Below are positions 1 to 47,230 of a stretch of 47,230 nucleotides of DNA, in pieces. The DNA is from a virus. The position numbers and the translations under genes were made by a program. The notes below the pieces were generated by a model, which did no database searches, was not told the DNA's origin, and saw only the letters and a program-made list of their open reading frames with translations. The stretch covers positions 1 through 47,230 of IMG/VR virus record IMGVR_UViG_3300025671_000110; one strand, written 5' to 3'. Positions within the stretch are counted from its first letter, which is position 1, and each line of letters opens with the position of its first letter.

Positions 1-318
1 TGAATTGCCATGTATCAGGCTTGCCCAGCCAGCATAGGTTTCTTCGCCGGATATCGGATCGATATGGTAAAATTCCAACGCTATCCAATCCATGCATTGC
101 GCTTCATCCCAAGCTTTGGCAATGCTTTTGCCACGATAAAAAACGTTATCGCAATCTTCCGGATCCTGAACAGATACTTCAAAACCCATATGATTGATTG
201 CGTATTTGATCAATTGATATCCTGAATTTTTCATTTGTTTTCCCATTTCGGTTTTATGCAATTGTACGGATTTATTTGATATTGGCTGTAATCCGTGTGG
301 CCATTCATAGTTACTCAT
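1..318 (-). CDS. Hypothetical protein, 3' part cut by the window edge
   Basis: An uninterrupted leftward frame of 106 codons starts at the ATG complementary to 316-318 and runs off base 1 without a stop. It begins MSNYEWPHGLQPISNK and later reads GKSIAKAWDEAQCMDWIALE. An AAAGGA Shine-Dalgarno sequence lies about 8 bases upstream of the start. The protein is soluble-looking and rich in Trp, Cys and acidic residues. I do not recognise it. It is transcribed away from the late block and uses codons such as GCG, TGC and GGC more freely than the structural genes, so it may belong to a different module. A rightward frame covering the same bases (10-225) is its shadow. Confidence 0.72.
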   Translation of the reverse strand, partial: MSNYEWPHGLQPISNKSVQLHKTEMGKQMKNSGYQLIKYAINHMGFEVSVQDPEDCDNVFYRGKSIAKAWDEAQCMDWIALEFYHIDPISGEETYAGWASLIHGNS

Positions 319-372
319 GTCGTTGTGTCCTTTCGCAAACATGATTGATTGAATAAATTTTTTCGGCAATTT

Positions 373-423
373 AAAACCCCTATTTAATTTATTCATACTT
401 CGTATGAATTAAATAGGGGTTTT
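373..423. repeat. Long hairpin 1 (bulged inverted repeat, possible bidirectional terminator)
   Basis: Bases 373-389 pair with 407-423 (outer arms AAAACCCC/GGGGTTTT, then TATTTAATT/AATTAAATA). Next comes an unpaired TATT at 390-393 on the left arm only, then CATAC/GTATG around a TTC loop. The right arm ends in a T run, so it could terminate rightward transcripts; read leftward it also ends in TTTT. The inner arms and the four-base bulge recur in the hairpin at 561-613. Confidence 0.75.
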
Positions 424-438
424 ATTTTTGGTTGTCAA
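410..438 (-). promoter_or_regulatory. Candidate leftward sigma-70-like promoter for the gene at 1-318
   Basis: Read leftward, TTGACA (438-433) is followed after 17 bases by TATTTA (415-410). The -35 is a perfect consensus and the -10 matches at four of six bases. Transcription would start inside the loop region of hairpin 1, giving a leader of about 85 bases before the gene. The overlap with the hairpin makes this less certain. Confidence 0.4.
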
Positions 439-448
439 ACGATTTTTT

Positions 449-546
449 CGATGATGATTTGCCGGGTGAAAACACAACAAATCGATCATCAAAACGATCA
501 TCACGGATCGTCAAAAGCTTGTCAAAGATCTGACGGAATGATGATC
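449..546. repeat. Iteron-like cluster of GATCATCA repeats
   Basis: CGATCATCA occurs at 483-491 and 495-503 with a 12-base period, followed by the near copy GGATCGTCA at 505-513. Inverted relatives lie at 449-457 (CGATGATGA) and 539-546 (TGATGATC). Such short direct repeats are typical of initiator or repressor binding sites. No replication initiator gene is visible here, so the role is inference. Confidence 0.5.
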
Positions 547-793
547 TGGTTTTGCCAATTCAATAGATTATTTAATTTATTCATAACTTTGTTATGAATT
601 AAATAATCTATTGTTTTCAGTGATTTGGGGATGGATACCATGGGGATTTGGAAAGACTGGATAGCCTTTGGCTATGTCATGTTTTTGACATTATCTTGAT
701 CTTGTCTATGAAAACTAACCAAAAACTAGTTAATCTTTGCCAATCTGCTGTCAATTCCTTGACAGAAAAGGATTCTTTGTCAATTTTCTGACA
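520..793. promoter_or_regulatory. Four operator-like dyads, TGTCA-N6-TGACA
   Basis: The same dyad with an exact six-base spacer occurs at 675-690, 749-764 and 778-793, and with one mismatch (TGACG) at 520-535. The half-sites contain TTGACA, so bound protein could cover -35 elements on either strand. Centre-to-centre distances between the three perfect copies are 74 and 29 bases. This is the arrangement expected of operators for a dimeric repressor or activator in the divergent control region. No candidate regulator gene is seen in the window. Confidence 0.6.
561..613. repeat. Long hairpin 2, related to hairpin 1
   Basis: Bases 561-577 pair with 597-613, there is an unpaired TATT at 578-581, and CATAAC/GTTATG closes on a TTT loop. 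The inner stem and the bulge match hairpin 1, while the outer arms (CAATAGAT/ATCTATTG) differ and still pair perfectly. A short TTTT run follows on the right, so weak rightward termination is possible. Confidence 0.75.
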
Positions 794-1301: not shown

Positions 1302-2867
1302 ATGTTAGATACACATGATACAGGAGTATTACCAGAACTATCTGGTATGGGGTCTTATATTAATTTAAAAGATTCTATGAATAAGTATATACATAAAGCA
1401 GCACGTGACGACTTTTTGACATTTGTAAAGTTATTTGCGCCTACACTTGTGTCTGACTTTGAAATGGGTAGGCATATTGAACTACTATGTTCAAAGTTAC
1501 AAGGTGTGGTAGAAGGAAATGTAAAAAGACTTATGGTCTTTCTGCCACCACGTTCATCTAAATCACTTATATGCAGCAAGCTATTCCCTGCATGGTACAT
1601 AGGAAACTATGCTAATCACGAGATTATGTCGGTATCACACAGTGATCAGCTTGCCAGTGACTTTGGTAGATCGGTAAGAGATATAGTAAACACAGAGAAG
1701 TTTCAAAGGATCTTTCGTGGTGTGTCCCTTCGCAGTGACGTAAAGGCAGCAGGTAAGTGGAAGACGAATAAGAATGGTTCTTACTATGCAGCAGGTGTAC
1801 GTAGTCAGGTGGCAGGTCGTGGCGCACACGTAGCATTACTTGATGACGTGATGTCTGAAGAAGACAGCTTCAGTGAAGCAGGACGTAGATATATTAAGGA
1901 ATGGTATCCTGCAGGTTTACGTACACGTATCATGCCCAATGGAGCCATCATTATTATCAACACACGATATCACTATGATGACCTGTGTGGATGGTTGTTA
2001 AAGCAGGAATCAGCAGTAGAAGAATCCAAGTATCCTTGGGAAGTTATATCTATACCTGCATGGTTAGATGAGCCAGCAGCAGAGTTACTTGGTTTACCAG
2101 TAGGAACTTCATACTTTCCAGAATGGAAATCAGATGAAATACTAAAACTGGATGAGCAGGAAATACGTGCATCTAATGGTAGTAGATACTGGAATGCTTT
2201 GTATATGCAAGATCCAAGTCCTGATGATGGTGGTATTATTAAAAAGAAATGGTTTAAGTGGTGGGATTATGAAGATCCACCAAGCTGTGACTTTATTATT
2301 CAGACATATGATACAGCATTTAGTACAAGTAGAACGGCTGACTATAGTGTAATTCAGACTTGGGGTATCTTTAATAACTATGAAGAAGACGGATATGGTG
2401 GTGAATATGTTACTTCTAATCTTATTCTATTAGGAAATGTAAGAGGAAGATTTGAATATCCTGAACTTCGTAGGCTGGCACAGGAACTATACGCACAGTA
2501 CAGACCAGATATTTGTATTATAGAAAAGAAAGCTTCGGGTCAGTCCTTGCTGCAGGATATGCGTAGGGCAGGTCTTCCTGTACTTGACTATCTTCCAGAC
2601 AGGGACAAGGTGGCACGTGTATACGCATCTACACCAATGATGGAAGCAGGACGTGTATGGTTACCTAATGATAGGGTATGGGCAGATGATTTGTTTTCAG
2701 AATGTATGTCATTTCCGAATGGCGCACATGATGACCAAGTTGACTGTATGACTATGGCTATTCATTATATGAAAGATAGCTGGAACCTTAGACATCCAGA
2801 AGATCCTGATTGGGAAGACGATGTTAATTATAGAAGACAAAAGCGTGTTGCATATTGGAGAACTTGA
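1302..2867 (+). CDS. terL: Terminase large subunit (ATPase and nuclease)
   Basis: The 521-residue protein is the DNA-packaging motor that docks on the portal and cuts concatemers. The N-terminal ATPase shows a Walker A-type LPPRSSKSL at 81-89 and a Walker B-type HVALLDD at 176-182. The C-terminal RNase H-like nuclease carries its acidic residues in QTYDTAF (D337), IIEKKASG (E408) and GAHDDQVD (D477/D478/D481). Length and motif order are normal for the family. It begins immediately after the stop of the preceding small gene, suggesting translational coupling. The small subunit is not next to it but 36 kb away on the other strand (38363-38881). Cos versus headful packaging cannot be decided from the sequence. 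Confidence 0.95.
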   Translation: MLDTHDTGVLPELSGMGSYINLKDSMNKYIHKAARDDFLTFVKLFAPTLVSDFEMGRHIELLCSKLQGVVEGNVKRLMVFLPPRSSKSLICSKLFPAWYIGNYANHEIMSVSHSDQLASDFGRSVRDIVNTEKFQRIFRGVSLRSDVKAAGKWKTNKNGSYYAAGVRSQVAGRGAHVALLDDVMSEEDSFSEAGRRYIKEWYPAGLRTRIMPNGAIIIINTRYHYDDLCGWLLKQESAVEESKYPWEVISIPAWLDEPAAELLGLPVGTSYFPEWKSDEILKLDEQEIRASNGSRYWNALYMQDPSPDDGGIIKKKWFKWWDYEDPPSCDFIIQTYDTAFSTSRTADYSVIQTWGIFNNYEEDGYGGEYVTSNLILLGNVRGRFEYPELRRLAQELYAQYRPDICIIEKKASGQSLLQDMRRAGLPVLDYLPDRDKVARVYASTPMMEAGRVWLPNDRVWADDLFSECMSFPNGAHDDQVDCMTMAIHYMKDSWNLRHPEDPDWEDDVNYRRQKRVAYWRT

Positions 2868-2876
2868 GTATATAAT
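2848..2876 (+). promoter_or_regulatory. Candidate promoter before the portal gene
   Basis: A consensus TATAAT at 2871-2876 follows TTGCAT at 2848-2853 with a 17-base spacer. A similar TATAATATAGG stretch recurs at 10364. The -35 is weak and overlaps the 3' end of terL. Confidence 0.4.
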
Positions 2877-2917
2877 ATAGGGATAGTTGAATATTAACTT
2901 TATAAGCAGGGAAAACT

Positions 2918-5407
2918 ATGGCTACAGAAAAAAATCCAAACGATCAAATTCCAACAGATAATATTATTAATGTGGACTTTGAAACAAATATGGACTCAAA
3001 TGTTAATTTTGAAGTCGATCCAGATACAGGTGAAATAGAAGTTGAATTTACTTCAGACGATAATGTTGTTGAAGTAGATTTTAGTTTAGATGATTCAGAC
3101 TTCTATGCTAACCTAGCTGAAGAACTAGATGAAGATATCCTTTCTTCTATCGGTCAAGAAATCTACGATAATTATGAAGCAGACAAAAGTTCACGTTCTG
3201 AATGGGAATCCATGTTTGAACGTGGCTTTGATTTGCTTGGCCTCAAACTACAGGAAACCACAGAACCGTTTGAAGGCGCAGCAACTGCTGTACACCCATT
3301 GCTGATCGAATCAGCAGTCAAGTTCCAATCAAGGGCAAGTCAAGAACTATTCCCTGCTTCCGGGCCTGTAAAGACCCAAGTTCTCGGTGATATTACGGAA
3401 GACCGTCAGCGTCAGGCTAACCGTGTTCGCAACTTTATGAATTACCAGTTGACTGAACAGATGCCTGAATACTTTGACGAGTTTGAACGTATGCTATTTC
3501 ACCTGCCCTTGATTGGTTCAGCTTTTAAAAAGATTTACTTTGATGCATCTGTAGATCGTCCTGTCAGTGAGTTTGTACCCATTGACCAGTTCTATGTGTC
3601 TTATTATGCTACAGATCTACGCCGTGCTGATCGATATACCCATGTGTTGTATCGCAGCCCTGTAGAACTGTCACGTCAAATTAATGCAGGTATGTATCTG
3701 GATAATGATCTTCCCGATCCTTATTTACCAGAACAATCTGCTCTTACAGAAAAAATGGATACAGTTCTAGGACTGTCACCTTCTTCAGATAGTGATATGC
3801 AATATGTTCTTCTTGAACAGCATTGCTATCTGGACATTGAAGAAGAAGGTGTGGCTTGTCCTTACATTGTAACTATTGAAGAAAGTTCACGTCAAGTTCT
3901 TTCTATTCGCCGCAACTGGGACCCAGAAGACGAAACAAAACAAAAGAAAATGTTCTTTACTCATTATCGTTTTGTACCGGGCTTTGGGTTCTATGGTCTT
4001 GGTCTTATTCACTTCCTTGGTAACCTTACTATGTCTGCTACGGCAGCTATGCGTAACCTTATCGATGCTGGTCAGTTTGCTAACTTGCCCGGTGGCTTTA
4101 AGGCAAAAGGTGTACGTATTGTAGGTGATAATGATCCTGTTGCTCCCGGCGAGTTTAAAGAAGTTGAAGCAACTGGTATGGATCTTACAAAGTCTATTGT
4201 ACCACTACCATATAAAGAACCATCAGGAACTTTGTTCCAGATGCTACAGTTTGTAGCGGCAGCAGGACAAAAGTTTGCAGATACCACTGAGCAAGTAATC
4301 AGTGAAGGTTCTAACTATGGGCCTGTAGGTACAACCATGGCACTGCTTGAAGCTTCTAGTAAGTTCTTTAGTGCTATCCATAAGCGTTTGCACAAGTCAC
4401 AAAAAGATGAATTTAAAATTTTGGCACGTATCGATTACGAAAGTTTGCCAGACGAATACCCCTACGATGTCCCCGGTGTTACAGAAAAGATTTTCAAATA
4501 CGACTTTGATGGTCGTGTAGATGTCTTGCCTGTATCAGATCCAAACATTCCTTCTTCTGCACACCGACTTATGATGACGCAGATGGCTGTACAAATGGCA
4601 CAGACAGCCCCACCGGGAATGTTTAATATGGAAGAACTAAACCGTACTTTGTTGAATGCGGCTAATATTCCTAATCTAGATCGCATTCTACCTAAGAAGC
4701 CTGAACCACAGCCTCTTGATCCTGTTACGGATATTGAAGCTGCAACTAAAGGCTTGCCTATTAAAGCATTTGCTGGACAAAACCATGATGCACATATTCA
4801 AGTTAAGACAATGTTCTTACAAGATCCTGCTAATGGTGGTAATCCTATGATGCAACGTATTGCACCTGTATTGCAAGCAAATATTCAAGAACATATTGTA
4901 ATGAAGTATGAGGAGCAAGTTAATGGTCTAACACGTCAAATGATGGCAGAAGCACCGCAAGGTGATCCTAATGCACAGAATCCACAAGTAATCGAACAAG
5001 TAATGGCTGCTGCTGCACAACAAGTCATGCAAGCTAACATGGCTGCAGCACAACAAGGAGGTGGTCCAGAACAACAAATGGTTGCTATTGAAGCACAACG
5101 TCTTGAAATTGAAAAACAAAAGATTCAGGCGCAACTTGCAAAAGAAGCTTCTGAAGGTGCGTTGAAGAACCGTGACCTTGATCTAAAAGAACAGAAGATT
5201 GCGCTTGATGCTTATAAAGTGGGAGCAGAGAATACTCTGAAGTCTGATGAAAAAGAGAAAGATCGAAATACAAAAACGGCTATCAAGGCTGTCGAAATCC
5301 TCGCAGACCTTATCAAACAAGAAGACAACATCAAAAACTCCGAAACGCTTAAAGCGGCAGACATGATTACCAAGTTACTAGCAGATGCTAAAAAGGGAAA
5401 GGCATAG
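2918..5407 (+). CDS. Portal protein
   Basis: The 829-residue protein is expected to form the dodecameric portal ring at the capsid vertex. The central region contains a stretch typical of long portals of marine phages (SEGSNYGPVGTTMALLEASS, then FFSAIHKRLHKSQKDEFKIL). The C-terminal 200 residues are Gln/Ala/Lys-rich and helical, as expected for a P22-type barrel. The first 60 residues are a very acidic extension with recurring VxF and VDF strands. Position directly after terL and before the scaffold and capsid genes supports the call. The ribosome site is GCAGGGAAAACT before the ATG. Confidence 0.9.
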   Translation: MATEKNPNDQIPTDNIINVDFETNMDSNVNFEVDPDTGEIEVEFTSDDNVVEVDFSLDDSDFYANLAEELDEDILSSIGQEIYDNYEADKSSRSEWESMFERGFDLLGLKLQETTEPFEGAATAVHPLLIESAVKFQSRASQELFPASGPVKTQVLGDITEDRQRQANRVRNFMNYQLTEQMPEYFDEFERMLFHLPLIGSAFKKIYFDASVDRPVSEFVPIDQFYVSYYATDLRRADRYTHVLYRSPVELSRQINAGMYLDNDLPDPYLPEQSALTEKMDTVLGLSPSSDSDMQYVLLEQHCYLDIEEEGVACPYIVTIEESSRQVLSIRRNWDPEDETKQKKMFFTHYRFVPGFGFYGLGLIHFLGNLTMSATAAMRNLIDAGQFANLPGGFKAKGVRIVGDNDPVAPGEFKEVEATGMDLTKSIVPLPYKEPSGTLFQMLQFVAAAGQKFADTTEQVISEGSNYGPVGTTMALLEASSKFFSAIHKRLHKSQKDEFKILARIDYESLPDEYPYDVPGVTEKIFKYDFDGRVDVLPVSDPNIPSSAHRLMMTQMAVQMAQTAPPGMFNMEELNRTLLNAANIPNLDRILPKKPEPQPLDPVTDIEAATKGLPIKAFAGQNHDAHIQVKTMFLQDPANGGNPMMQRIAPVLQANIQEHIVMKYEEQVNGLTRQMMAEAPQGDPNAQNPQVIEQVMAAAAQQVMQANMAAAQQGGGPEQQMVAIEAQRLEIEKQKIQAQLAKEASEGALKNRDLDLKEQKIALDAYKVGAENTLKSDEKEKDRNTKTAIKAVEILADLIKQEDNIKNSETLKAADMITKLLADAKKGKA

Positions 5408-5410
5408 ATT

Positions 5411-6382
5411 ATGGCTGGCGGTTTACAACAAGTATTAAAGCTTGCGGCAAGGTCTGGACTAAAAGAGTTTGCCACACCAATTAAAACTACTGGACGTGGT
5501 TCAGCAAAGAAGTTTGTTCCTGAAAATGAACCTATTATGCGTATGGAAGAAAGTGTGGAAGAATCACTTTCTCCACGCATGAAACGAGCAATGGATACAG
5601 AAAAGTTTCCTGAAGCTGCTTCTATTATGCCAGCCCCCGGTAGATTTTTTGATCCTACAAAACGTGACTATAAAAAAGAAATGTCAGAAAGTTTATCTAA
5701 AGCAGGGATAGAACTTGATTTAGATTTTGGTAATTACATTATGATGGGTAAAGGTAAACCTACTGATGTATCTAATGAAACTTTTGAAAATCTTTTTATT
5801 AGTCCTCGCACTTCGTTTAAAAAAAGTAGTGAAAGATTACCTAATACTCCAACACAAAATAAAACTGTAGCTAGGGCTAACACACTTTCTGAAAATTTAA
5901 GCATTGAAGATATGAAAAAAAATTATAAACAAAATACTGGTTCTACAGGAAAAGAAATAAATACTAATCTTTTACAACCGGGTAGATTTTTTGTTATGGT
6001 AAATAATGAAAAAAGATTACTAGACCACCCTATTGTTGCTGTTCAGCCAGTAAGAGGACAACACTATTATACTTTAGATACACAATTTGTTGGTCCTGTG
6101 AATATGAAAAAAATGACAGACAAAGTTAATAGAAAATTAAAATCTGGTGAAATTAAAGAAGAAGTACAACAACCTAATTTACGTCCTGCAACTGTTGGAG
6201 ATATTAGACTAGGAAATATAGTAGCAGAAATTAAAGTAGGAAGCAGAACACATCCTTTATATGATTATATTGAAGTAGATGCTGTACCTTCTTTTTCTAA
6301 AGGTGTAGGCCAAATTGAAAAATTTAAATCAGGTGGTAGTATAGAACGTAATCCATATAACTATGAGCCAAAGGCTATTTAA
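5411..6382 (+). CDS. Hypothetical virion-region protein with GGSI C-terminal tag
   Basis: A 323-residue basic protein four bases downstream of the portal gene. No known domain is recognised. It has prolines and charged residues throughout and no membrane segment, and it repeats the phrase PGRFF (in MPAPGRFFDP and LQPGRFFVM). It ends in FKSGGSIERNPYNYEPKAI, whose GGSI fits the GG[RSK][IV] tag on several other small proteins here. The next gene starts right after its stop, so it is part of the packed late block. An internal or accessory head protein is plausible but unproven. Confidence 0.8.
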   Translation: MAGGLQQVLKLAARSGLKEFATPIKTTGRGSAKKFVPENEPIMRMEESVEESLSPRMKRAMDTEKFPEAASIMPAPGRFFDPTKRDYKKEMSESLSKAGIELDLDFGNYIMMGKGKPTDVSNETFENLFISPRTSFKKSSERLPNTPTQNKTVARANTLSENLSIEDMKKNYKQNTGSTGKEINTNLLQPGRFFVMVNNEKRLLDHPIVAVQPVRGQHYYTLDTQFVGPVNMKKMTDKVNRKLKSGEIKEEVQQPNLRPATVGDIRLGNIVAEIKVGSRTHPLYDYIEVDAVPSFSKGVGQIEKFKSGGSIERNPYNYEPKAI

Positions 6383-6574
6383 ATGCTTTGGGAAGAAATA
6401 GATCGTGTACTGCAAAAAGAAATGCAGTCTTTAAAAAATTCGCTTGCATCTGGATCAGCTTCAGATTATCATTCGTATACAAATGCAGTTGGTAGAATCG
6501 CTGGCATAGAATGGGCCAGAGAAGAAATCAAGCATATAGTAAACACAATGATATATGAAGACGATGAGGAGTAA
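6383..6574 (+). CDS. Small acidic helical protein
   Basis: The 63-residue product begins MLWEEIDRVLQKEM and ends in the acidic IYEDDEE. It is predicted to be a single helical hairpin with no membrane segment. It starts immediately after the preceding stop and is followed two bases after its own stop by the GroES-like gene. Small helical proteins sit at this place in many related phages. The function is unknown. Confidence 0.75.
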   Translation: MLWEEIDRVLQKEMQSLKNSLASGSASDYHSYTNAVGRIAGIEWAREEIKHIVNTMIYEDDEE

Positions 6575-7109: not shown

Positions 7110-7112
7110 CTA

Positions 7113-7141
7113 TTGTATATATCTAACTTATCTTGTATTAT
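7113..7141 (+). promoter_or_regulatory. Candidate promoter for the scaffold-capsid group
   Basis: TTGTAT at 7113-7118 and TATTAT at 7136-7141 are spaced by 17 bases in an 87-base gap. A small CGTCA/TGACG dyad lies in the leader before an AAAGGAG ribosome site. Confidence 0.45.
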
Positions 7142-7196
7142 AAAAACAATTGCGTAACTCGTCAGCTTCGCAAATGACGTTAAAGGAGAAATATAA

Positions 7197-8162
7197 ATGT
7201 CAGATAATGACTGGACAACGGTAGATACTTCCAAAGCCGAAAAAGAGGAAGAACGTGTAGAGTTTGAAATTGAAGGTGAAGAAGAACAACCAGAAGTTGA
7301 AACTCAACAAGAAAGGGTAGCTGAAGCACAAGCAGAAGCTGTAGAAGATCAGAAGCCTGATCAGGAAGAACAACAACAGTCTGGCGCACAAAAGCGTATT
7401 CGTCAATTAGTACGTCAGAAAAAAGAACGTGAAGAACAAATTGCTGAATTAATTGCTCGTCAAAAAGAACTTGAAGATCAATTAAAGAATAAGCAAAAAG
7501 AAATTGAAACTTCTGTTGAAAAGAATTTTGAAACATCAGAAGCAAGCATTAATAACCGTATTGATATTGCTAAACAAGCTTATCGTCAAGCTTTGGAATC
7601 AGGTGATACGGACCGCATTGTAGAAGCGCAGGAACATTTAAGTCGGGCGCAAAACGATGCATCAATGCTTCAGATAAATAAACAGCAGTTTACAATGTCT
7701 CAGCAGCAAGCTGTTCAACAAACTGAAAGATCTATTCAACAAGAAGCCGCACAGTATGATCGTTTGGCAGTTGAATGGGCAGGTAGAAATCCTTGGTTTG
7801 GTCAAGATTCCGTAATGACTACATTAGCATTGGAAATTGACAATGAACTAAAAGGAGAAGGCTTTGATCCTTCAGATACAGATTTTTACCAAGAGATTGA
7901 TTCTAGACTTCGGCAACGATTTCCAGAACGTTTTGGTGAAGCACCTGTAACACAACGGACGCAGGAAACGTCATCACCTGCTCAAGTGGTTGGTGGAGCA
8001 TCACGCACTTCAACCTCTTCATCTAATAGCAAGAAAGTAAAACTTTCAAAAGAAGATATTCGTCTTGCTGAAAAATGGGGTATACCACTTGAACAATACG
8101 CCGCAGAAAAACTAAAAGTGGAACGATCCGATGGTGAGTACACTTCTGTTTATGGTAATTAA
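7197..8162 (+). CDS. Probable scaffolding protein
   Basis: The 321-residue product is acidic at the N-terminus and has a long Glu/Gln/Lys coiled coil (roughly residues 20-190). A more ordered C-terminal third contains ERFGEAPVTQ and KLSKEDIRLAEKWGIPLEQY. Highly charged, helical proteins placed before the capsid gene are typical scaffolds that line the prohead and then leave. No protease domain is seen in it or next to it. The assignment rests on composition and position. A strong AAAGGAG ribosome site precedes the start. Confidence 0.7.
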   Translation: MSDNDWTTVDTSKAEKEEERVEFEIEGEEEQPEVETQQERVAEAQAEAVEDQKPDQEEQQQSGAQKRIRQLVRQKKEREEQIAELIARQKELEDQLKNKQKEIETSVEKNFETSEASINNRIDIAKQAYRQALESGDTDRIVEAQEHLSRAQNDASMLQINKQQFTMSQQQAVQQTERSIQQEAAQYDRLAVEWAGRNPWFGQDSVMTTLALEIDNELKGEGFDPSDTDFYQEIDSRLRQRFPERFGEAPVTQRTQETSSPAQVVGGASRTSTSSSNSKKVKLSKEDIRLAEKWGIPLEQYAAEKLKVERSDGEYTSVYGN

Positions 8163-28961: not shown

Positions 28962-30631
28962 TGGCAGACCCACAATACGATGTGCCAGAGGATTATAAAT
29001 CTGGTCTAAAAGATGTTCTTAAAGAAGCAAAAGAAATTTATGAACAGAAAAAAGGATTGGGTTACCAAACCTATGCAGGTCCACAGATTGCAGGGTTTAG
29101 CCCTGACGAACTGGCAGCTATGCAAGGCATTGCAGGTTTGGTTGGTGCAGGTCAACAGTACTTTGCTCCGTCTGCTGCTTTAACTTTAGGACAGACACAA
29201 CAGTTTACACCACAAATGGCTACTCAGTATATGTCCCCATACCAGCAAGCCGTTGTAGATGTAGAAAAGCGTGAGGCTGTACGTCAAGCGCAGGTTCCTA
29301 TGCAACAAGCACGTGCTAAAGCAGTTGGTGCTGGCGGTTATGGTGGGTCACGTCAGGCCATTCTTGAAGCAGAACAACTACGTAACTTACAACAACAGCT
29401 TGGTGATATTCAAACTAAAGGTTCGCAAGCTGCTTATGAAACTGGTCTTCGTGCATTTGAAGCACAGAAAGAACGTGAACGTGCTGCAGCTTCTGGCCTT
29501 GCTGCCTTGGGTCAGGCTGCACCTAAACAGGCTCTTACAGAACTTACTGCTTTGTCTGGTATTGGTGAAGCACAACGTGGCATGACACAGGCGGGTTTGG
29601 ACATTGCTCGTCAGGAGTTTGAGCAACAGCAACAATATCCATATACTACACTTGGTCAATATCAGTCTACACTTTATGGTTATCCTTACCAATCTACAGC
29701 AAGGTATCAGCCAATGGCTCAACCATCTTCATCACAGAACCTTGCAGGTATTCTTGGTGCAGTAGGTAAGATTGCAGGTCCTTCTGGATTTGGTTTCTTT
29801 AATACTGGTGGTTCTATTGCTTATAGATCAGAAGGTGGATTATCTGGTCAGATTAAAAACCTACAAGGTGCAGGAATGATTGGTGATACTGGTGTCAGTG
29901 AAGCATCTCCACTAGGTCAAGATTTAAGTAAAGCAACTTTTATTTCTGCTTTAGGTAGTTTATTACAAGGACAGAAAAATATTACAACAGAAAAAGAAGA
30001 ATTATTTAAACGTCAACAGGAAGCTGCTGCTAAGAAAATGGAAGAATTAGAAAAGCAGCGTAGTCCTATTAATTATATTTCAGATCTTTTACTTGGTTAT
30101 GCACAGGCCACACCGGGAGCAGGGGTAGGCGCACAGCTTGCAGAGGCAAGTGAGTTTGCAGGTGAACGTAGACCAGACCTTGTGTCGGCTGAATATGAAA
30201 TTGAACAGCAGTTGGCAGAAGGTCGTATTAGTATAGAAGAAGCTAAGTTAAAAGAAGCAGAGTTGTATTATGATTCTATTGCAGATCTAATGAAAACTAA
30301 GAATATAGATTTAACTGAAGCAAAAAAGATTCAAGATATGATAGATTCTCAACTTGGTTTTAGATATGATGAAGTTAATAATAGATATGTAAATAGTGAA
30401 GGCAAACCTTTATCAGCAGATGAAGCACTTAGTAGAGCTAGATTCCTTGAAGAACAACTTCAAAACTACACAGATCCTTTAGATCTTCAAAAAAATATTA
30501 GAGAACGTATTCAGTCTAGAACTGGTGGTAATGATGCAGATAGTAATAACGAAGTACCTGAAGGTAGTACAATACAAATAAAGAAAAGCGGTGGAATCCT
30601 TTCCATGATTTCAGAGGAATATGAAGATTAA
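28961..30631 (+). CDS. Internal/ejection-type virion protein
   Basis: The 556-residue protein has an N-terminal helical Ala/Gln-rich half with YMSPYQQAVVDVEKREAVRQ, GGYGGSRQAILEAEQLRNLQ and FEQQQQYPYTTLGQYQSTL. A Gly-rich linker with NTGGSIAYRSEGGL follows, then a charged helical half. It ends with SGGILSMISEEYED. Proteins of this plan precede the largest internal protein in other marine podovirus-like phages and are thought to be ejected with the DNA. It lacks any enzyme motif that I can see. Confidence 0.75.
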   Translation: MADPQYDVPEDYKSGLKDVLKEAKEIYEQKKGLGYQTYAGPQIAGFSPDELAAMQGIAGLVGAGQQYFAPSAALTLGQTQQFTPQMATQYMSPYQQAVVDVEKREAVRQAQVPMQQARAKAVGAGGYGGSRQAILEAEQLRNLQQQLGDIQTKGSQAAYETGLRAFEAQKERERAAASGLAALGQAAPKQALTELTALSGIGEAQRGMTQAGLDIARQEFEQQQQYPYTTLGQYQSTLYGYPYQSTARYQPMAQPSSSQNLAGILGAVGKIAGPSGFGFFNTGGSIAYRSEGGLSGQIKNLQGAGMIGDTGVSEASPLGQDLSKATFISALGSLLQGQKNITTEKEELFKRQQEAAAKKMEELEKQRSPINYISDLLLGYAQATPGAGVGAQLAEASEFAGERRPDLVSAEYEIEQQLAEGRISIEEAKLKEAELYYDSIADLMKTKNIDLTEAKKIQDMIDSQLGFRYDEVNNRYVNSEGKPLSADEALSRARFLEEQLQNYTDPLDLQKNIRERIQSRTGGNDADSNNEVPEGSTIQIKKSGGILSMISEEYED

Positions 30632-33600
30632 TGGCTGAAAGTTTCTTTTCTCTAAGTCCTGAAGATAAGAAAAAACTTCAGGAATATAAAAACAGAGAAA
30701 CAGTTTTTGATCCGGGTAAGATCATTAGCAAAGCTGCTGCTGGTCTAGGAGAAGCTGCGCTTGATTTAACAGAACTTAATATTGATTTGCTTACTGCTGG
30801 TAAAGGTGGTAAGAAGTTTCGTAATGCTATTTCAGAAGCAACAAAGTATGTAGATAATAAACTTCAAGAAACATCTGCAGGTCGTGCAATTTCTGAAGCT
30901 GCTAAAGAAACAGTATCTCCTAGTAAATTAAGTACAGCCGAAGATGTTGCTGCAGATATTCTTGAGTTTGGTATAGCAACTCGTGGAATAGGTGCGGCAA
31001 CAAAAGGTATAGCACAACCTACAACAAAACTAGGTAAGTTTGGTAAGCTTGCTACTGATGGTGTTCTTGCTGATGTGCTTGTCCGTGATCGTGATGAACA
31101 AATTACAAATGATTTTATTCAACTTGTTCCAGAATCAGAAGAGTATATTGGTGCGCTTGCTATTGATCCTGATGACGAACTTGCGGAAAAGAAACTGAAA
31201 CAATTAATTGAAAGTGCTATTGCTGGTGGTATTATAACTGCTGCGGCAGCACCTGCAATTCTTGCACTAAAGTTTGGTGGTCGTAAATTATTTTCTAAAG
31301 TAAAAGCACTAAAGAAAGATAAGGTTGACACACCTATTGAAAACACATCAAAGGTAGAGGCAAAGAAAACAAAGATAATTCCTACACCAAGTGGTGGATA
31401 CGTACAACGTACTGGCCTTATTGAAAAAATGGGTAAGGTAAATACAAAACTTGGTCGTTTGTTTACCAGTAAAGCTGGACTACCAGATGAACTATTTAAT
31501 TCTTATCTTCGCAAACAAAGATTTGCAGAAGGTGCAGACATAGAAGTACAAAAATATGTTAGAGAATTAAAAGAAGTAATAGAAAAAAACAAAGACAAAC
31601 TAAGCCCAGAAGATTTTAATAACCTAACAGAAATGTCTGTACGTCAAATACAACAGGCTGTTCGTTCTGGTACTGTGCCTAAAGAAGTTGCTGATAAGTT
31701 TCTTCAGCTACGTAAGTCTGTAGATGCTAATGAAACAAAACTTCTTGATCTCCTTGATATAGACAAAGACAGTGCGCTTGGTATTAAAATGGACAAAGAC
31801 TATGTGCCTTATATTACACGTAGCTATGAAACATTTACTAATCCTAAGTGGTCAACAGAAATTAAAAAAGCTTTGAAGGATGAACTAGATCCTGATCTAT
31901 CTGATCACAATGCTGAGATTGTTAAGATTGTAGATAATGCTAAACGATATATTCGTAAGAACAATAAAGGACTAAATGACGAAGAAGTAAATGCTGTCAT
32001 AACTAACATCGTAGAGCAAGGTAAAAAAGGTGGTCAGCTAAAAGCATTCATAGACATGATGAATGGTACAGTTGCTGGTCAAAAAATTAAAGTTCTTAAA
32101 ACAAGAAAAGATCTTGATAAACCTATTCTTGATTTGCTTGGTGAAGTAAAAGATCCTACACGTAAATTTGAAACAACACTTCGTAATCAGAACAAGCTTA
32201 TTGCCGAAGCAGAATATCTTAAAGATGTTAAAAAATATGCAGAACAAAACCTTGGTAAAGAAGTTACTATCAAGGGATTGTTTCCTTTTCTTCCACAAGA
32301 AAAAACTACATTCTTAAAGAAAGGTGTTTACTCAGCTAATCGTGACATAAGAAAAAGCATGGCAGATCTTGGTTCTGACGTACAATCTTTTGGTGGTCAG
32401 ACAGGAAAGATTGGTTTAAATAATTATGTAACTACTGAAAGTATGCATGAGATATTTAAAAATGGTTTAGATCTTTTTGATAATCCTTATGGTAATAGCT
32501 GGTTGGGTAAAGTTACTCAAAAGACTTTAGGTACAGCACAGGCGATGGAAACTGTGTTTGACCATACTGCTCATGCTCTTAACGTGTATGGTGCTATTCA
32601 ACAACTTATGATGAATGGTCATGCGTTTGATAGGCAGATATTAAAAAGCGCACAAAAGAATGTAGCGACTGTAATTCGTAGGGCTAAGAAAAATAATGAT
32701 CCAGCAGCTATAGAATTTTTACGTAAAGCAAAGAACCGTGGTGTTATTGATTCAAACCTTGTGTCTGAAACTGTTCTTAAAAACGTAGATAGATATGGCG
32801 ATAAACTAAAAGCAGACAGTAAGTTTGCTACACCATTTCAGTTTGTGGAAGAAACATTTGACAAAGGTGTTAAAGGTGCGTCTGCAGTATACGGTGGTGC
32901 TGATGACGTGTCTAAACTTATGGCACTTGATGCAGAAATTAAACAACTTACAAAAGTATTTCCAAATAAAACTAAAGACGAAATATTTGATATAGCTGCA
33001 GAACGTGTTAGGAATACTATGTTGTCTTACTCAACTGCTATCCCACTTGTTCGTATTATAGGTAAGATGCCTCTTGGTACTTATGCTACTTTTCCTGCAG
33101 AAATACTTCGTTCTAATTATCATATTATTCGTTATGGTATTAAAGATATTATGGAAGGACAAGCAACAGGTAACACAGCACAGACGCTTATGGGTTTAAA
33201 ACGTTTGTCTGCTGCTGCAGGAACTGCCGCTGGTCTTGAAACAATAATAAATACTAATAATGAAAAACAAGGAGTATCAGCAGTAGAAGAACGTGGCGTT
33301 AATTTAATGTCACCTGACTATGCTAAGAATTCTAAAAAGGTATTTACAAAAGGATTTGAATATGATCCACAGACTGGTCATATTATGACACGGTATGTAG
33401 ACAGTGGGTTTATTGATTCAGCCCAATCTTTAAAAGGTCCATTACGTGCTATCACAGGTAAGCTACTTGCAGGTGGAGAAGTAACTCAACGTGAACTAGA
33501 TGATGTGATGTTAGATATTGCTAAAGAAAGTCTTAGTCCATACATATCAGAAAAGTTTTTGACTGCTGCTATTCTTAATGCTTCACGTGGTGTTGATGCA

Positions 33601-34371
33601 GAAGGAAGAACAATAGAAGGTGATAGCTTTGCTGAAAGACTTCCTACAGAAATAGGAAAAGTTTTTATACCCGGCGGTGCTAAAAATATTAAAAGATATT
33701 TAGACGCAAGGGCATCAGAAAACTTTTTAGAAGAACAGCTAGGTACTGAAAAAGCTATTGGTCGTACAAAAACAGGATTTCCTGTAAGTAAAAATGAACA
33801 ACTAGGATTTAATCTGACTGGTGTTCGTAATAATACTGTAGATATTACTAAGGCTGTAGGTTATTCTATGTACGAAGATTCAAAGAAAGTTAATGAGACA
33901 CAGGCTAAATTTAAAAAATACTTAAATGAAATACCTGTAGAGCAGATGACTGAAAGCGATGTTCAAGATTTATATAATGAATATAGAAAGCTTCAGGACG
34001 AAAAGTATGAAGCTATGGCACGGCTTACAGACAAGGCCATGGTATTTATGGAAATGCAGTATCAAGTTCGTAATCCAAAAGATGGAACAGTAACAATTAA
34101 AAAGTTTGGTATTGATGGTTTGCATGATGCAGTAACTTCTGATAAAATGTATAAGCCAGCACAAAATTATATTAATGCTTTGACAAGTAATTCACGTAAG
34201 GGAACAGTAGGTTACTTTACACCTGATCGTATTAATGATAAACAGCTTATTAAATTACTAAGAGATAAGCGCATACCAGATAATGTTATCTATGGTCTTG
34301 AACAAATAGCAAGACAATATGAAGGACTGCCTCTTAGAAAAATTCGTAACGTAAGAGAAGAAGATAATTAA
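30631..34371 (+). CDS. Large internal virion protein (ejection protein)
   Basis: At 1246 residues it is the second largest product of the window, after the receptor-binding fibre. It is mostly helical and basic, with an Ala/Gly-rich hydrophobic segment near residue 190-215 (IAGGIITAAAAPAILALKFG) and another Ala-rich region around residue 855-870 (KRLSAAAGTAAGLE). Such long helical proteins at the end of the tail block are the internal core proteins of short-tailed phages, which form a channel across the cell envelope. No lytic transglycosylase motif is evident. It shares one base with the preceding gene. Confidence 0.75.
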   Translation: MAESFFSLSPEDKKKLQEYKNRETVFDPGKIISKAAAGLGEAALDLTELNIDLLTAGKGGKKFRNAISEATKYVDNKLQETSAGRAISEAAKETVSPSKLSTAEDVAADILEFGIATRGIGAATKGIAQPTTKLGKFGKLATDGVLADVLVRDRDEQITNDFIQLVPESEEYIGALAIDPDDELAEKKLKQLIESAIAGGIITAAAAPAILALKFGGRKLFSKVKALKKDKVDTPIENTSKVEAKKTKIIPTPSGGYVQRTGLIEKMGKVNTKLGRLFTSKAGLPDELFNSYLRKQRFAEGADIEVQKYVRELKEVIEKNKDKLSPEDFNNLTEMSVRQIQQAVRSGTVPKEVADKFLQLRKSVDANETKLLDLLDIDKDSALGIKMDKDYVPYITRSYETFTNPKWSTEIKKALKDELDPDLSDHNAEIVKIVDNAKRYIRKNNKGLNDEEVNAVITNIVEQGKKGGQLKAFIDMMNGTVAGQKIKVLKTRKDLDKPILDLLGEVKDPTRKFETTLRNQNKLIAEAEYLKDVKKYAEQNLGKEVTIKGLFPFLPQEKTTFLKKGVYSANRDIRKSMADLGSDVQSFGGQTGKIGLNNYVTTESMHEIFKNGLDLFDNPYGNSWLGKVTQKTLGTAQAMETVFDHTAHALNVYGAIQQLMMNGHAFDRQILKSAQKNVATVIRRAKKNNDPAAIEFLRKAKNRGVIDSNLVSETVLKNVDRYGDKLKADSKFATPFQFVEETFDKGVKGASAVYGGADDVSKLMALDAEIKQLTKVFPNKTKDEIFDIAAERVRNTMLSYSTAIPLVRIIGKMPLGTYATFPAEILRSNYHIIRYGIKDIMEGQATGNTAQTLMGLKRLSAAAGTAAGLETIINTNNEKQGVSAVEERGVNLMSPDYAKNSKKVFTKGFEYDPQTGHIMTRYVDSGFIDSAQSLKGPLRAITGKLLAGGEVTQRELDDVMLDIAKESLSPYISEKFLTAAILNASRGVDAEGRTIEGDSFAERLPTEIGKVFIPGGAKNIKRYLDARASENFLEEQLGTEKAIGRTKTGFPVSKNEQLGFNLTGVRNNTVDITKAVGYSMYEDSKKVNETQAKFKKYLNEIPVEQMTESDVQDLYNEYRKLQDEKYEAMARLTDKAMVFMEMQYQVRNPKDGTVTIKKFGIDGLHDAVTSDKMYKPAQNYINALTSNSRKGTVGYFTPDRINDKQLIKLLRDKRIPDNVIYGLEQIARQYEGLPLRKIRNVREEDN

Positions 34372-38428: not shown

Positions 38429-38881
38429 CTCTTCGTCATCCTCATATTCTTCTTCGTCTTCATCTGCAAACTGATCTGGGAAAGCTTGGGCAGCAAGTTC
38501 AAATACTTTTTCAAATCCAATTATTTTCATGGAATCAATGATCTCTTTTTCAAGAGATTCAGAAGAGACATCTTCTGTCTCAGAATTATTTCCCCTTACA
38601 CGAGAAAGAAGTTCAAGGGCTTTTAGTGCAGTAGTTCCGTTACCTGCATTACGAGCAACTTCATACTGCTTTTCTATCTCAGATATAACATCTACATCAG
38701 TAACAATCTGACTTCGTAACTCTTCGATACGTTCAAGAATTGCAGTTTCCTGTAGTAGTCTATATCCTTGATTGTGTGCAGAAGCTTCACTATATCCTGC
38801 ATCCTTTGCCGCCCTTGTAGCATTGTTATGCAGGATATAGTTTTGACAGAACTTCTCTTGCTTTTCTTTAAGCTGCGTCAT
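38363..38881 (-). CDS. terS: Terminase small subunit
   Basis: The 172-residue protein begins with the Terminase_2-type DNA-binding domain: LKEKQEKFCQNYILHNNATR, AAKDAGYSEASAHNQGYRLL, ILERIEELRSQ. A helical middle (KALELLSRVRG) and a very acidic C-terminal tail (FADEDEEEYEDDEELLL) follow. It recognises the packaging site and activates the large subunit. Unusually it lies on the strand opposite terL and at the far end of the late block. It overlaps the preceding leftward gene by 14 bases and the holin tail by 66 bases on the other strand. The gene would therefore be expressed from the leftward transcript. Confidence 0.85.
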   Translation of the reverse strand: MTQLKEKQEKFCQNYILHNNATRAAKDAGYSEASAHNQGYRLLQETAILERIEELRSQIVTDVDVISEIEKQYEVARNAGNGTTALKALELLSRVRGNNSETEDVSSESLEKEIIDSMKIIGFEKVFELAAQAFPDQFADEDEEEYEDDEELLLTEELTSTTDTEAGSNDDT

Positions 38882-41156
38882 TCAATAACTCTGTGTAGTA
38901 TTTTTCCTGACCACGTTTAGATTGCTTCCAAACTGCTGCAGCTAGAGTTCCTTCACCATGGAAGTTAATACCCATGTCCATGTCTACATTATCAAACAGC
39001 TTCTCACAGTCTTGTGCCATAGCAAGTAGTTCACCTGTAGTCCAGAACTTATGACCACCTGTTTCTACCTGCATATACTTAGGCTTAGTTTTTTCTGTGT
39101 CAGTCTTTTCCTTTTTCATTTCCTCTGTCATAGTTGGAACAGAACAATCAAAACCAAACAGTTCAAAGTTTCTAAAGCCTAGTGTATGTGCAATGGCAAT
39201 GGTACGCATAGCCGCACAAGTACCACCAGTGATAAGTGTAGAGCCTTCTTCTATACCTGTAGACTTGTCTACTACAATCTTATCCTTTACATTCATGTCA
39301 CGTAGTGCATCTGAATAAGCTTGCCATCCTTTTATATTAGCACCTTGTTCAAGCAAGTATTTAGTAACAGATGGGTCAGTCATAGAAGCAACAAGCATGA
39401 TAGTCTTATCGTCCACTGTCTTAAACAAATCTTTACGTACTACACCATGTGTACTTGTTCCATCAATAGGACGTGGATCTAGGATAACACAGGCAAATGG
39501 TTGGATGCCATTCTCAAGTAACTTAGGATAGCTATGCTTAACGCAGAACACTTTACCTTTAGTTTGCTTGATTGTCTTCTTAACCAATTTCCAGTTAACA
39601 CTATCACCGCCAGAGATAATAATAGCAGTTTCATTATTGATCTTACTAGTTTTAATCCAGTCGAAATCTTTAATAAGCTTTTTATTTTCTTTTACATTAT
39701 TAATGATCTCTTCTTTAGGCCGTGAATCTTTAGGTGTAACAACAATAGGTACACGTGTTAATTCATCAGGTAGTTTAGGTAGTCCTTCTTTCATAGCAAC
39801 AAAGCATAGGTGTGTAACACCACCATCCTTTACCATGTCACTGCTAGGAAGAACTATTTTAGCATATGCCTTAACCTCTTTCATTAACTGATTAACGCCA
39901 TCATTCTCAGGCATACGTCCTTCTTTGTCTTTAGAAAAGTAATCATCAAAGACAAGAACAGGAATATGTTTTAGGTTTTCAAAGTCAGCCTTAACTGTTT
40001 CATATGAATGACCGCCATCAATGTATGCAAAGTCTGCACCCTTAACTGATTCACAATCTTTAAGAGTTTGTTTGGTGTCTCCTTTATATAGTTCAAATGT
40101 AAACTCTTTTCCTTTTTCAAACATTTTACCACCGAACTCTTCCAGTCGTTTAGTAACAGCGGCTAGTGTATTGTGTGGTTTAGAGTTTAATTCTATATGG
40201 TCTAGTTCAGGTGTAGCTTCCTCAAACAAATCAAAGCCTACATAATGTACACTGTCTGTGTACTGGAATGCAGCCATAGCCATTTGAATAGCACGTCCAC
40301 CATTCCAAGTACCTGTCTCTACAATAGTACTTGGTCTGTAAAACCCAATCATATCAAGCAATTGCTTGTATCTTTTAGGCCCATTAACATCAGGTGCTAC
40401 CTGAGTATCACTAAGTTTCTTCTTTAGATTACCCTTGAAGTGGTCGAAGTATTCTGCCAATGGAGACTGAGCAAATGCTGCCAGACCTTTTACTCCTTGT
40501 GACAGATTGTTTGTTACCATACCATGTGCTTTGTAAATATTTAACAAACGTTCAAAGATAAATCCGTCATGCCATTCACGATAAGCAACAACCTCACCTA
40601 TAGTGTAACAGCCACGAAGGTCAGCAAGTAAGCTACAAGTGTTATGAGAACTAAGGTTAAAGCCCATAAAACTTGTTTCGCTATAGTCAACATCCATTCT
40701 ACCAAGGTGGACAAGATCTGCTTTGTCTGGTAACCATTGCTTAAACTTTTCAACATCCAATCTCCTTGTGGTTACTGTGTCTGCATCCAACCAGATCATC
40801 CAGTTGCTTTCGTCATAGACATCTTCCATCATTTCAAAAGCTAGATCGGTCATGGCATATACTTTGTGACACCATTTGATAGCATCAAGCCGCCAGTTAT
40901 ATGGCATATTACCACCTTCAGTACCATCGTGAAGCTTCATACGTTCACGATACTCAAGCATTTCTTCAACATCATTTAGATTACGATACTCAATTGTATT
41001 ACAAACAGGATGTTCTACATCCTTAATGTTAAAGTCATGGTAGTATGCGATTAGTTTAAAATGTTTTGGATTCCATTTATCCATAACACTTTCAAGCATT
41101 TTCTTGGCATACTCATGGTAGCCTTGTTCACTGAACGATGTTACAAAAACATACAT
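38868..41156 (-). CDS. Trimodular glycosyltransferase / methyltransferase / DUF115 protein
   Basis: The 762-residue protein joins three domains. Residues 1-240 look like a nucleotide-sugar glycosyltransferase, with IWLDADTVTTRRLD (DxD at 124-126). Residues 260-460 form a class I SAM-dependent methyltransferase, with IVETGTWNGG (278-287), YIDGGHSYET (379-388) and VFDDYF (402-407). Residues 505-760 resemble the DUF115/MptE-type domain found in flagellin-glycosylation accessory factors, with AIIISGGDSV and FGFDCS. Together they suggest building or modifying a surface or virion sugar. It shares one base with the upstream glycosyltransferase gene. Confidence 0.82.
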   Translation of the reverse strand: MYVFVTSFSEQGYHEYAKKMLESVMDKWNPKHFKLIAYYHDFNIKDVEHPVCNTIEYRNLNDVEEMLEYRERMKLHDGTEGGNMPYNWRLDAIKWCHKVYAMTDLAFEMMEDVYDESNWMIWLDADTVTTRRLDVEKFKQWLPDKADLVHLGRMDVDYSETSFMGFNLSSHNTCSLLADLRGCYTIGEVVAYREWHDGFIFERLLNIYKAHGMVTNNLSQGVKGLAAFAQSPLAEYFDHFKGNLKKKLSDTQVAPDVNGPKRYKQLLDMIGFYRPSTIVETGTWNGGRAIQMAMAAFQYTDSVHYVGFDLFEEATPELDHIELNSKPHNTLAAVTKRLEEFGGKMFEKGKEFTFELYKGDTKQTLKDCESVKGADFAYIDGGHSYETVKADFENLKHIPVLVFDDYFSKDKEGRMPENDGVNQLMKEVKAYAKIVLPSSDMVKDGGVTHLCFVAMKEGLPKLPDELTRVPIVVTPKDSRPKEEIINNVKENKKLIKDFDWIKTSKINNETAIIISGGDSVNWKLVKKTIKQTKGKVFCVKHSYPKLLENGIQPFACVILDPRPIDGTSTHGVVRKDLFKTVDDKTIMLVASMTDPSVTKYLLEQGANIKGWQAYSDALRDMNVKDKIVVDKSTGIEEGSTLITGGTCAAMRTIAIAHTLGFRNFELFGFDCSVPTMTEEMKKEKTDTEKTKPKYMQVETGGHKFWTTGELLAMAQDCEKLFDNVDMDMGINFHGEGTLAAAVWKQSKRGQEKYYTELLNDAA

Positions 41157-41920
41157 TATATTACATCTCCTATTGCATTATCGTAAAAAATCTTATTGGC
41201 TCTTACGTGCCAGTCACCTGCATACTCTGCATCTATCTGGCGTTTTGGTTCCCATTCTTTAAACCAAGGACCGCCAGTAGTAAAGTGTACATTCTTTGGA
41301 GATATAGATTCACTTGACCAACCATCAAGCCAGTTCCATTCCTCATGTATGCCACCGATCTCTTCGTCTTCTAACCAAGAGAAACCATGTAACCAAGATC
41401 CAGACTTTGTATTTACATCATCAACTGTAAGTCGTAAGTTTCCTTCGTGACCACAGTTCCACAACACAAGGCTGGACCAGTTCTTTCTATTATATTGTTG
41501 TTGTATTTGTCCGTCCATTTTAACAGTTGCTGATGGATTGTAGTTATGCTTTACGCATTGAATAGCATAGTCTCTATTACCATACTCTTCAAACAATTCA
41601 TTTATGTTTGTACGTACAAGCATATCTGAATCCATGAACAATGCCAAACCTTCATATTGGTTTAAGGCAGGGATAAGAAAACGTGTGAATGTAAACTCTG
41701 TGCTGAAAGGTCTTCCATCGAAGACATCAACCATCACACGTTTTCCATCAATACTATCAAGCCTAGCAGACCTGCGATAAAGATTTGCTCTACGAAGAGC
41801 CTGTTGTTTAAGTGGTACAATATCATATTCCTTATTGTATTCACGTATCGAATCATGCAAGACCTCATATGCTTCGCTTTCCCTGCCATCAAAGCCAATA
41901 TAAATTACTGGACGTTTCAT
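41156..41920 (-). CDS. Glycosyltransferase, GT8-like
   Basis: Using the ATG at 41918-41920, one base after the previous stop, the protein has 254 residues and begins MKRPVIYIGFDGRESEAYEV. FMDSDM at 96-101 carries the DxD metal- and sugar-nucleotide-binding motif. Phrases STEFTFTRFLIPAL, VLWNCGHEGNLRL and GGPWFKEW agree with GT-A enzymes of the GT8 kind. It probably acts together with the trimodular protein encoded next to it. A TTG start eight codons earlier is possible but lies within the preceding gene. Confidence 0.82.
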   Translation of the reverse strand: MKRPVIYIGFDGRESEAYEVLHDSIREYNKEYDIVPLKQQALRRANLYRRSARLDSIDGKRVMVDVFDGRPFSTEFTFTRFLIPALNQYEGLALFMDSDMLVRTNINELFEEYGNRDYAIQCVKHNYNPSATVKMDGQIQQQYNRKNWSSLVLWNCGHEGNLRLTVDDVNTKSGSWLHGFSWLEDEEIGGIHEEWNWLDGWSSESISPKNVHFTTGGPWFKEWEPKRQIDAEYAGDWHVRANKIFYDNAIGDVI

Positions 41921-41921
41921 T

Positions 41922-42125
41922 TTACCGAATCCAGAAAGGTGCAAGAGAACTTGTGTTCCTATAACCTAACGCTTTCAGTTCATCACGAATAGCTGCATCT
42001 GCTTCATTACGTGCAGCAATAGCATCACGAAGACCAGATGTACGGCGTTCACGATATTCCTTACGAAGTTCTGTCAAACGTTCTTCAGTCAGTTTGATCT
42101 CTTCTTGTAATTCGTCTAGTTCCAT
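41922..42125 (-). CDS. Small coiled-coil protein
   Basis: The 67-residue protein is a charged helix (MELDELQEEIKLTEERLTEL, RKEYRERRTSGLRDAI). It is the first gene after the strong leftward promoter at 42157-42185 and has an AAAGGAG ribosome site. The function is unknown; small proteins of this kind in phages often bind host proteins. Confidence 0.72.
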   Translation of the reverse strand: MELDELQEEIKLTEERLTELRKEYRERRTSGLRDAIAARNEADAAIRDELKALGYRNTSSLAPFWIR

Positions 42126-46623: not shown

Positions 46624-46668
46624 CCACAGACATTAACTAAATGTTCTGCTCCCGATTGATGTTGTTAC

Positions 46669-47157
46669 TTAGGCTGCTGACGAAACACCAAAGTTAATGT
46701 CATCGTCATCGAAGGAAGCGTCTTCTGCATTGTAGCCGCCGGGAACAACATCAAAGTCATCGGCATCATCCTTGCCACCATAGGCCACAAGATTTACTAC
46801 CTGTACAGCTTGAAGATCTGTACCGATTCCTTTGTTACCTGCATATTCCCATTCATAGGTTTTAAACAGGACGTTAACATCGGAACCATTACCAATAAGA
46901 GTACCGTGCATATCACGCTTCTGACCATCCTTCAGTGCTGGTGCAGAATTAACACCACCATCTTTACGATTTACCTTACGCTTGATACTTACAAAGTTAC
47001 CACGGTCATCACCCTTGGATTTAATTTTAAGACCTAGCTTCTTGGCCTTCTCAACTTCACTTTCGTTCAACGAAAGATCAACCTGATAGACAGGCTCATA
47101 AGTTGTGTTAGGTGTTGAGATAGATGCCCAATAAGCTTTTCCTGATAATACTGGCAT
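46669..47157 (-). CDS. Single-stranded DNA-binding protein (T7 gp2.5-like)
   Basis: The 162-residue protein begins MPVLSGKAYWASISTPNTTY and has an OB-fold-type strand pattern (YQVDLSLNESEVEKAKKLGL; GTDLQAVQVVNLVAYGGKDD). It ends in an acidic tail (AEDASFDDDDINFG), the hallmark of phage ssDNA-binding proteins such as T7 gp2.5, which dock partner replication proteins through it. An AAAGGAG ribosome site lies upstream. It is the first leftward gene visible at the right edge; its promoter is probably cut off. Confidence 0.83.
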   Translation of the reverse strand: MPVLSGKAYWASISTPNTTYEPVYQVDLSLNESEVEKAKKLGLKIKSKGDDRGNFVSIKRKVNRKDGGVNSAPALKDGQKRDMHGTLIGNGSDVNVLFKTYEWEYAGNKGIGTDLQAVQVVNLVAYGGKDDADDFDVVPGGYNAEDASFDDDDINFGVSSAA

Positions 47158-47230
47158 AATAAATGCTCCTTTCTTTCTATGTGGTCTTAGCCACTGTTGT
47201 ATGATTTGTGAATTATGACATAGGTAATTA

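Follow-up and report, generated by a model that had tools for sequence, protein, structure and literature searches.

Bulged hairpins before the early genes of an uncultured phage clade keep their fold while their bases are replaced

The stretch of DNA analyzed here (the window) is a 47,230-base IMG/VR phage record from a distant relative of pelagiphage HTVC023P; the closest cultured matches to its large terminase subunit are HTVC023P and its relatives, at ~39% identity. Genes run rightward from ~1.1 kb, including the terminase gene terL (1302–2867, + strand) that served as the anchor for finding relatives, and leftward from 38.4 to 47.2 kb, continuing at 318–1. The first leftward gene (1–318, − strand) is cut by the end of the record, has the ribosome site AAAGGA upstream and matches no Pfam or PHROG family. 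Its relatives begin at an ATG that corresponds to window position 234, and an in-frame insertion of 81 bp (235–315), at the gene's start, is missing in the near relatives L004, L005 and L006. Because L006 (1–588 and 11834–12323) links window 46643–47230 to window 4–576 and so joins both ends of the window, the hairpins described below sit in a divergent control region of a genome of ~58 kb. Relative to L006 the window record is missing ~11.2 kb, a stretch in which L006 has DNA polymerase A, primase-helicase, MazG and GP88-type genes. Elsewhere in the window, a 762-aa protein (38868–41156) comprises joined methyltransferase-like and MptE-like domains, and the adjoining gene (41156–41944) encodes a possible family 8 glycosyltransferase that scores below the Pfam cut-off. 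A 1246-aa protein of the virion region (30631–34371) has homologues in ten of the relatives read and is matched by nothing in PHROG or PDB and by no Pfam family above the cut-off. It was considered as an N4-like polymerase, and neither PDB nor Pfam returned a match; its relatives resemble an internal virion protein. Searches for the N4-like RNA polymerase that an N4-type hairpin promoter would require gave no match, and the PF00940 control also matched nowhere.

Two bulged hairpins, described here in gene orientation (− strand), lie at 372–424 (hairpin 1) and 561–613 (hairpin 2). Hairpin 1 has an 18-bp lower stem, a 4-nt bulge, a 5-bp apical stem and a GAA loop, and in sequence order reads TAAAACCCCTATTTAATT-[TATT]-CATAC-TTC-GTATG-AATTAAATAGGGGTTTTA. 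Hairpin 2 has a 17-bp lower stem, the same 4-nt bulge, a 6-bp apical stem and an AAA loop (AGA in relatives), and in sequence order reads CAATAGATTATTTAATT-[TATT]-CATAAC-TTT-GTTATG-AATTAAATAATCTATTG. Both therefore comprise 23 bp and a 3-nt loop and carry the bulge on one and the same arm; in gene orientation the bulge is AATA on the 3' arm, and its position can slide by a few nucleotides. The hairpins start 188–190 nt apart, and hairpin 1 precedes the first leftward start by ~53 nt. Their fold energies are −25.1 (hairpin 1) and about −20.4 kcal/mol (hairpin 2), with z values between −6 and −9 whichever strand is folded. Perfect stems in 301–1100 reach 18 bp, as compared with a maximum of 11 in 300 Markov shuffles, and a bulge-tolerant scan of all 47,230 bases returned hairpins 1 and 2 only and none in three shuffled windows; sliding-window energies alone are unspecific. 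Rfam matched the window hairpins only far below its gathering threshold, and no literature specific to them was found. The initial annotation had described two bulged hairpins with a common inner stem, an unpaired TATT and unrelated yet perfectly pairing outer arms. Refolding bears out each of these features and makes hairpin 1 one pair longer than claimed; the term outer arms is right as to pairing but loose, because lower stem, bulge and apical stem form a single hairpin.

The iteron cluster that the hairpins had been said to enclose is present as iteron-like repeats, read from the sequence between them (CGATCATCA/GATCGTCA, and CGATCATCA/CGATCATCACGGATCGTCA at 480–520). A candidate leftward sigma-70-like promoter, TTGACA-17-GATGAT (497–525, − strand), also lies between the hairpins; it is a consensus match only, and promoter-like sites in the region are no commoner than in shuffles. 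Hairpin 2 may lie upstream of an early promoter at this candidate site (525–497), in which case it would serve a longer leader or another end. Three further features were noted in the region. Repeated TGTCAA/TTGACA dyads at 748–800, including TGTCAATTCCTTGACA and found also in G012 and L009, are possibly repressor operators of the divergent control region. A non-coding block at 816–896 is about 75–84% conserved in L011, L012, L014, L015, L017 and L020, whereas the surrounding hairpins are not, and may be the core of a promoter or of an origin. Among the intrinsic-terminator-like sites of the region, the best is a dyad of 16 pairs (933–969) with a T-run after it on the minus strand; it would halt leftward transcription coming from the terL side.

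An IMG/VR search with exact cores of the window family found three near-identical phages only, and the wider comparison was therefore made via terL: 80 loci were retrieved out of at least 598 confirmed terL relatives, and 16 relative records were read whole or nearly whole. No terL relative was confirmed in bacterial genomes, and a 49-bit match in E. coli phage PD06, inside a gap between divergent genes, was set aside as probable chance. Among the near-identical phages, L004 and L005 keep both hairpins rather than one of them, unchanged apart from the loop of hairpin 2 (TTT to TCT); L006 has hairpin 1, and its record stops inside hairpin 2. All three have a third hairpin, 14 nt past the stop of the first leftward gene (L006 11680–11733, gene orientation, TTAGAACAGGGAATAATATACCC-TTTA-GGGTATATATATTATTCCCTGTTCTAA), which also has 23 pairs and a 4-nt bulge on the same arm as the window pair but is unrelated to it in sequence. 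In the more distant L014 (terL 86%), a pair of leader hairpins is spaced by 191 nt (189 in the window); their stems are CT-rich, the bulge is 5 nt long and sits on the arm that carries it in the window hairpins, and a third hairpin lies further on.

Many genera have a tandem hairpin family of their own in the leftward early genes beside terL and practically nowhere else in the genome, with two to nine copies per genome in a single orientation; G003, G005 and G011 are among the relatives without a clear repeated hairpin family. Two families are considered here in detail. Family A (G012, G013 and L142) has seven to nine hairpins per genome, and most of these follow the pattern TTAAA-T-[11-15 bp variable]-loop-TTTAA. 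Family B (G017, L128 and L127) has five copies in G017 and six in L128 of GTGTATCAATxxxxxxCACGAAGTGAxxxxxxATAATGATACAC (gene orientation), in which the x arms vary and always pair. Elsewhere, flanks GGAATATTA...TATAACGCC around variable stems are common to G006, G007 and other contigs. The bulge is on the 3' arm in the window, in L014 and in families B, C and F, and on the 5' arm or absent in families A and D. Near-identical hairpin copies occur at several loci within one genome. G017 and L128 also contain minisatellite-like tandem repeats (about 5880–6520 and 7110–7470, gene orientation) that differ between the two phages. Long bulged hairpins before early genes form a class that extends across the clade, and the window hairpins are the form it takes in one genus.

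Since MAFFT misregisters hairpins with different stems, pairing was counted per family with the copies registered by hand. The counts come from few rows, in which copies within a genome are related and the arms of the leader set were found through their pairing: in family A all 144 cells are paired and both sides have changed in 13 of 18 pairs, in family B all 95 are paired (both sides changed in 6/19), and in the leader set of the window and L014 all 52 are paired (10/13). For family B, 500 shuffles yielded no paired percentage or covariation score as high as the observed one, and the signal collapses in slid controls. The strongest evidence, which is independent of choosing hairpins by their complementarity, comes from the orthologous junctions J1, J2, J3, J5 and J6 of L142, G013 and G012, where each genome has a hairpin and the stem is different. 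The earlier proposal that the fold matters beyond the sequence is thus supported past the two copies on which it was made: unrelated stems still pair at orthologous junctions of related phages, and arms that have changed in related genomes have not drifted out of pairing. The fold and its retention with changed bases are directly supported, and a fold that is kept while bases are freely replaced and the sequence is genus-specific is what is new about these early-gene hairpins. Watson-Crick pairs account for 907 of 926, the remainder being 14 G-U as against 5 A-C on the gene strand, an excess that weakly favors RNA of the gene strand as the folded molecule.

The usual order in gene orientation is stop codon, hairpin, ribosome site and start codon. 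For 54 hairpins the median distance to the next start with a Shine-Dalgarno (SD) site is 42 nt, as compared with 173 nt when positions are drawn at random in the regions that contain the hairpins, and 67% of hairpins versus 26% of random positions lie within 70 nt of such a start (P = 6e-9, a value that ignores the relatedness of the hairpins). Hairpins with z < −5 are densest on the strand of the early genes (0.54/kb, against 0.38 on the complementary strand); the late region has 0.28 and 0.20. The orientation relative to the genes is single in every genome read; this, like the place before early genes, is a direct observation. No T-run follows the hairpins consistently over the families on either strand, and in families A and B so little space separates stop codon and ribosome site that a promoter would hardly fit.

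These features are consistent with RNA elements of the leftward early transcript that are cut by host RNase III and stabilize early mRNA, a reading that, on the sequence comparisons, we consider to have about an even chance of being correct. RNase III recognizes duplex shape more than sequence and tolerates sequence change, which would leave the arms free to change as long as they pair. The leftward early transcript would run through the hairpins, which follow a stop codon (or promoter) and precede the ribosome site of the next early gene, and the host enzyme would cleave their duplex of roughly two turns, with the 3'-arm bulge limiting or positioning the cut; no RNase III gene was found in 19 records, many of them fragmentary. 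The polycistronic early mRNA would be split just upstream of each cistron, and a protective 3' hairpin would remain on the upstream piece; transcription through the hairpins, cleavage and stabilization are steps that we infer. Among the options offered initially, structured regulatory RNAs comes closest, although the hairpins look less like independent RNAs than like parts of the leftward early transcript that serve in its processing or as its leader.

The RNase III sites of the T7 early region (R0.3, R0.5, R1, R1.1 and R1.3) are likewise long hairpins directly upstream of early genes, and their folds, at positions that we take from general knowledge of T7 (Dunn and Studier), were used as a yardstick. 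When folded, they have a common apical hairpin, an unpaired stretch in the 3' arm (UUUA or AAU), paired lower stems that are specific to each site and an early gene directly downstream. The window hairpins match this arrangement: they have the apical hairpin in common, AATA bulges from the 3' arm, the arms differ between the two and yet pair, and an early gene lies downstream. The hairpins stand before early genes in a polycistronic unit and have a variable lower stem with conserved pairing, as in T7; an unpaired 3'-arm stretch is found in the window, L014 and families B, C and F but not in A and D. The T7 sites differ in having two-sided internal loops, more G-U pairs and lower stems shorter than the 15–20 bp of the window hairpins, and their cleavage is proven whereas that of the window hairpins is inferred. 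By analogy, the hairpins probably resemble T7 RNase III sites in their working and are candidate members of that class.

An alternative that we regard as rather unlikely is that the hairpins are modular junctions, whose mutual similarity, together with transcriptional punctuation, lets small early-gene cassettes recombine. The precedent is the PeSLs of T4-type phages, stem-loops between small early genes that are implicated in modular gene shuffling (as summarized in PMC4503421); the present hairpins likewise lie between small early genes and, in one subgroup, at places of gene exchange. A PeSL combines a stem-loop terminator and an early promoter, and in families A and B no such promoter was seen beside the hairpins; the window has one promoter-like match between its hairpins (525–497), with no enrichment over shuffles. 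Masking hairpins before BLAST forces block ends at hairpins, and therefore breakpoints were taken from an unmasked comparison, the masked one being used solely to tell which genes are shared. G013 and G012 differ by the presence of two stretches of two genes each (G013 2855–3390 and about 1741–2244), both of which run from one hairpin to another, and a gene between two hairpins is replaced between L142 and G013. About 10 of 12 breakpoints, counted by hand in three genomes, are within 40 nt of a hairpin, although viable breakpoints are expected between genes anyway. Gains, losses and replacements of this kind are visible in the one subgroup of G012, G013 and L142 and are unproven in general: the breakpoints between G017 and L128 are away from hairpins, and no such pattern is seen in the window family. 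Furthermore, exchange driven by homology should preserve sequence, yet the fixed junctions show replaced stems. It is comparably doubtful that the hairpins bound exchangeable early-gene cassettes throughout the clade, as sequence-free punctuation with genus-replaced bases that would combine mRNA processing with exchange in the absence of a dedicated recombinase. Folded recombination sites, as first proposed, are disfavored in that no tyrosine recombinase was found in 19 records, many of them fragmentary, although modular exchange at hairpins does occur in the one subgroup.

That the hairpins are regulatory sites acting as DNA, for instance as inverted repeats of an operator or promoter in the manner of the ESAS of cluster K mycobacteriophages, is quite unlikely. 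The hairpins are near-perfect palindromes upstream of early genes, and ESAS share both this placement and a genus-specific consensus (PMC3203893, PMC11373665), being imperfect ~17 bp inverted repeats upstream of some non-structural genes with a consensus that varies by subcluster (PMC3203893). However, ESAS copies are one sequence with a SigA-like promoter inside (PMC11373665), which their arms retain (those of Anaya keep TTGACATGCATACAG), whereas the stems of the present hairpins are replaced at orthologous junctions, which is incompatible with a sequence-specific protein or promoter. The hairpins do not share one conserved inverted repeat with an embedded promoter, families A and B have hardly any room for one, and no repeat like the 13-bp SAS that ESAS accompany was seen with them. 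The conserved flanks of some families would be possible contact points.

Transcription terminators or attenuators of the early region, another of the initial options, are very unlikely. The hairpins are located between cistrons, TTTTATTTTT follows hairpin 1 on the + strand, and T4–T6 follows family A on the gene strand; nevertheless, the T-run is inconsistent over families on both strands, and most lower stems are AT-rich at the base. The combination of a GC-rich stem and a T-run that marks an intrinsic terminator is lacking, with hairpin 1 on the + strand alone coming near it, and a terminator scan reported neither window hairpin. Stopping before every gene would, moreover, silence the operon.

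It is likewise highly improbable that the hairpins are palindromic DNA elements under no selection as RNA, spread by duplication and with arms kept perfect by template-switch (quasi-palindrome) correction. Their arms are near-perfectly Watson-Crick paired with few intermediates, and near-identical copies lie at several loci of one genome; the near-pure pairing exceeds what selection on RNA alone needs, and quasi-palindrome correction could be the source of part of it. Template switching should erase the bulge too, yet the bulge stays in place, and the hairpins have a single orientation relative to genes, directly before ribosome sites. Neither Y1 transposase (PF01797) nor tyrosine recombinase (PF00589) was found in 19 records, many of them fragmentary, while all 14 controls for PF00589 matched. 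The same searches and the orientation locked to genes disfavor the REP-like elements proposed initially and led us to reject an IS200/IS605 or REP-type identity, and integron attC sites, although also folded bulged hairpins with variable arms that lie between small genes in one orientation, were rejected because no integrase was found in the 19 records and no R'/R'' boxes were seen by eye.

Terminators, attC sites, IS200/REP elements and ESAS operators fit the hairpins worse than does processing by RNase III. In phages that metagenomes alone have revealed, the hairpins offer a clean natural example of a nucleic-acid fold that outlasts the complete turnover of its sequence among related genomes. 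Should the RNase III reading hold, early mRNA processing in the style of T7 would extend to a large uncultured phage clade, and the hairpins would provide a handle for locating early-gene boundaries and small host-takeover genes.
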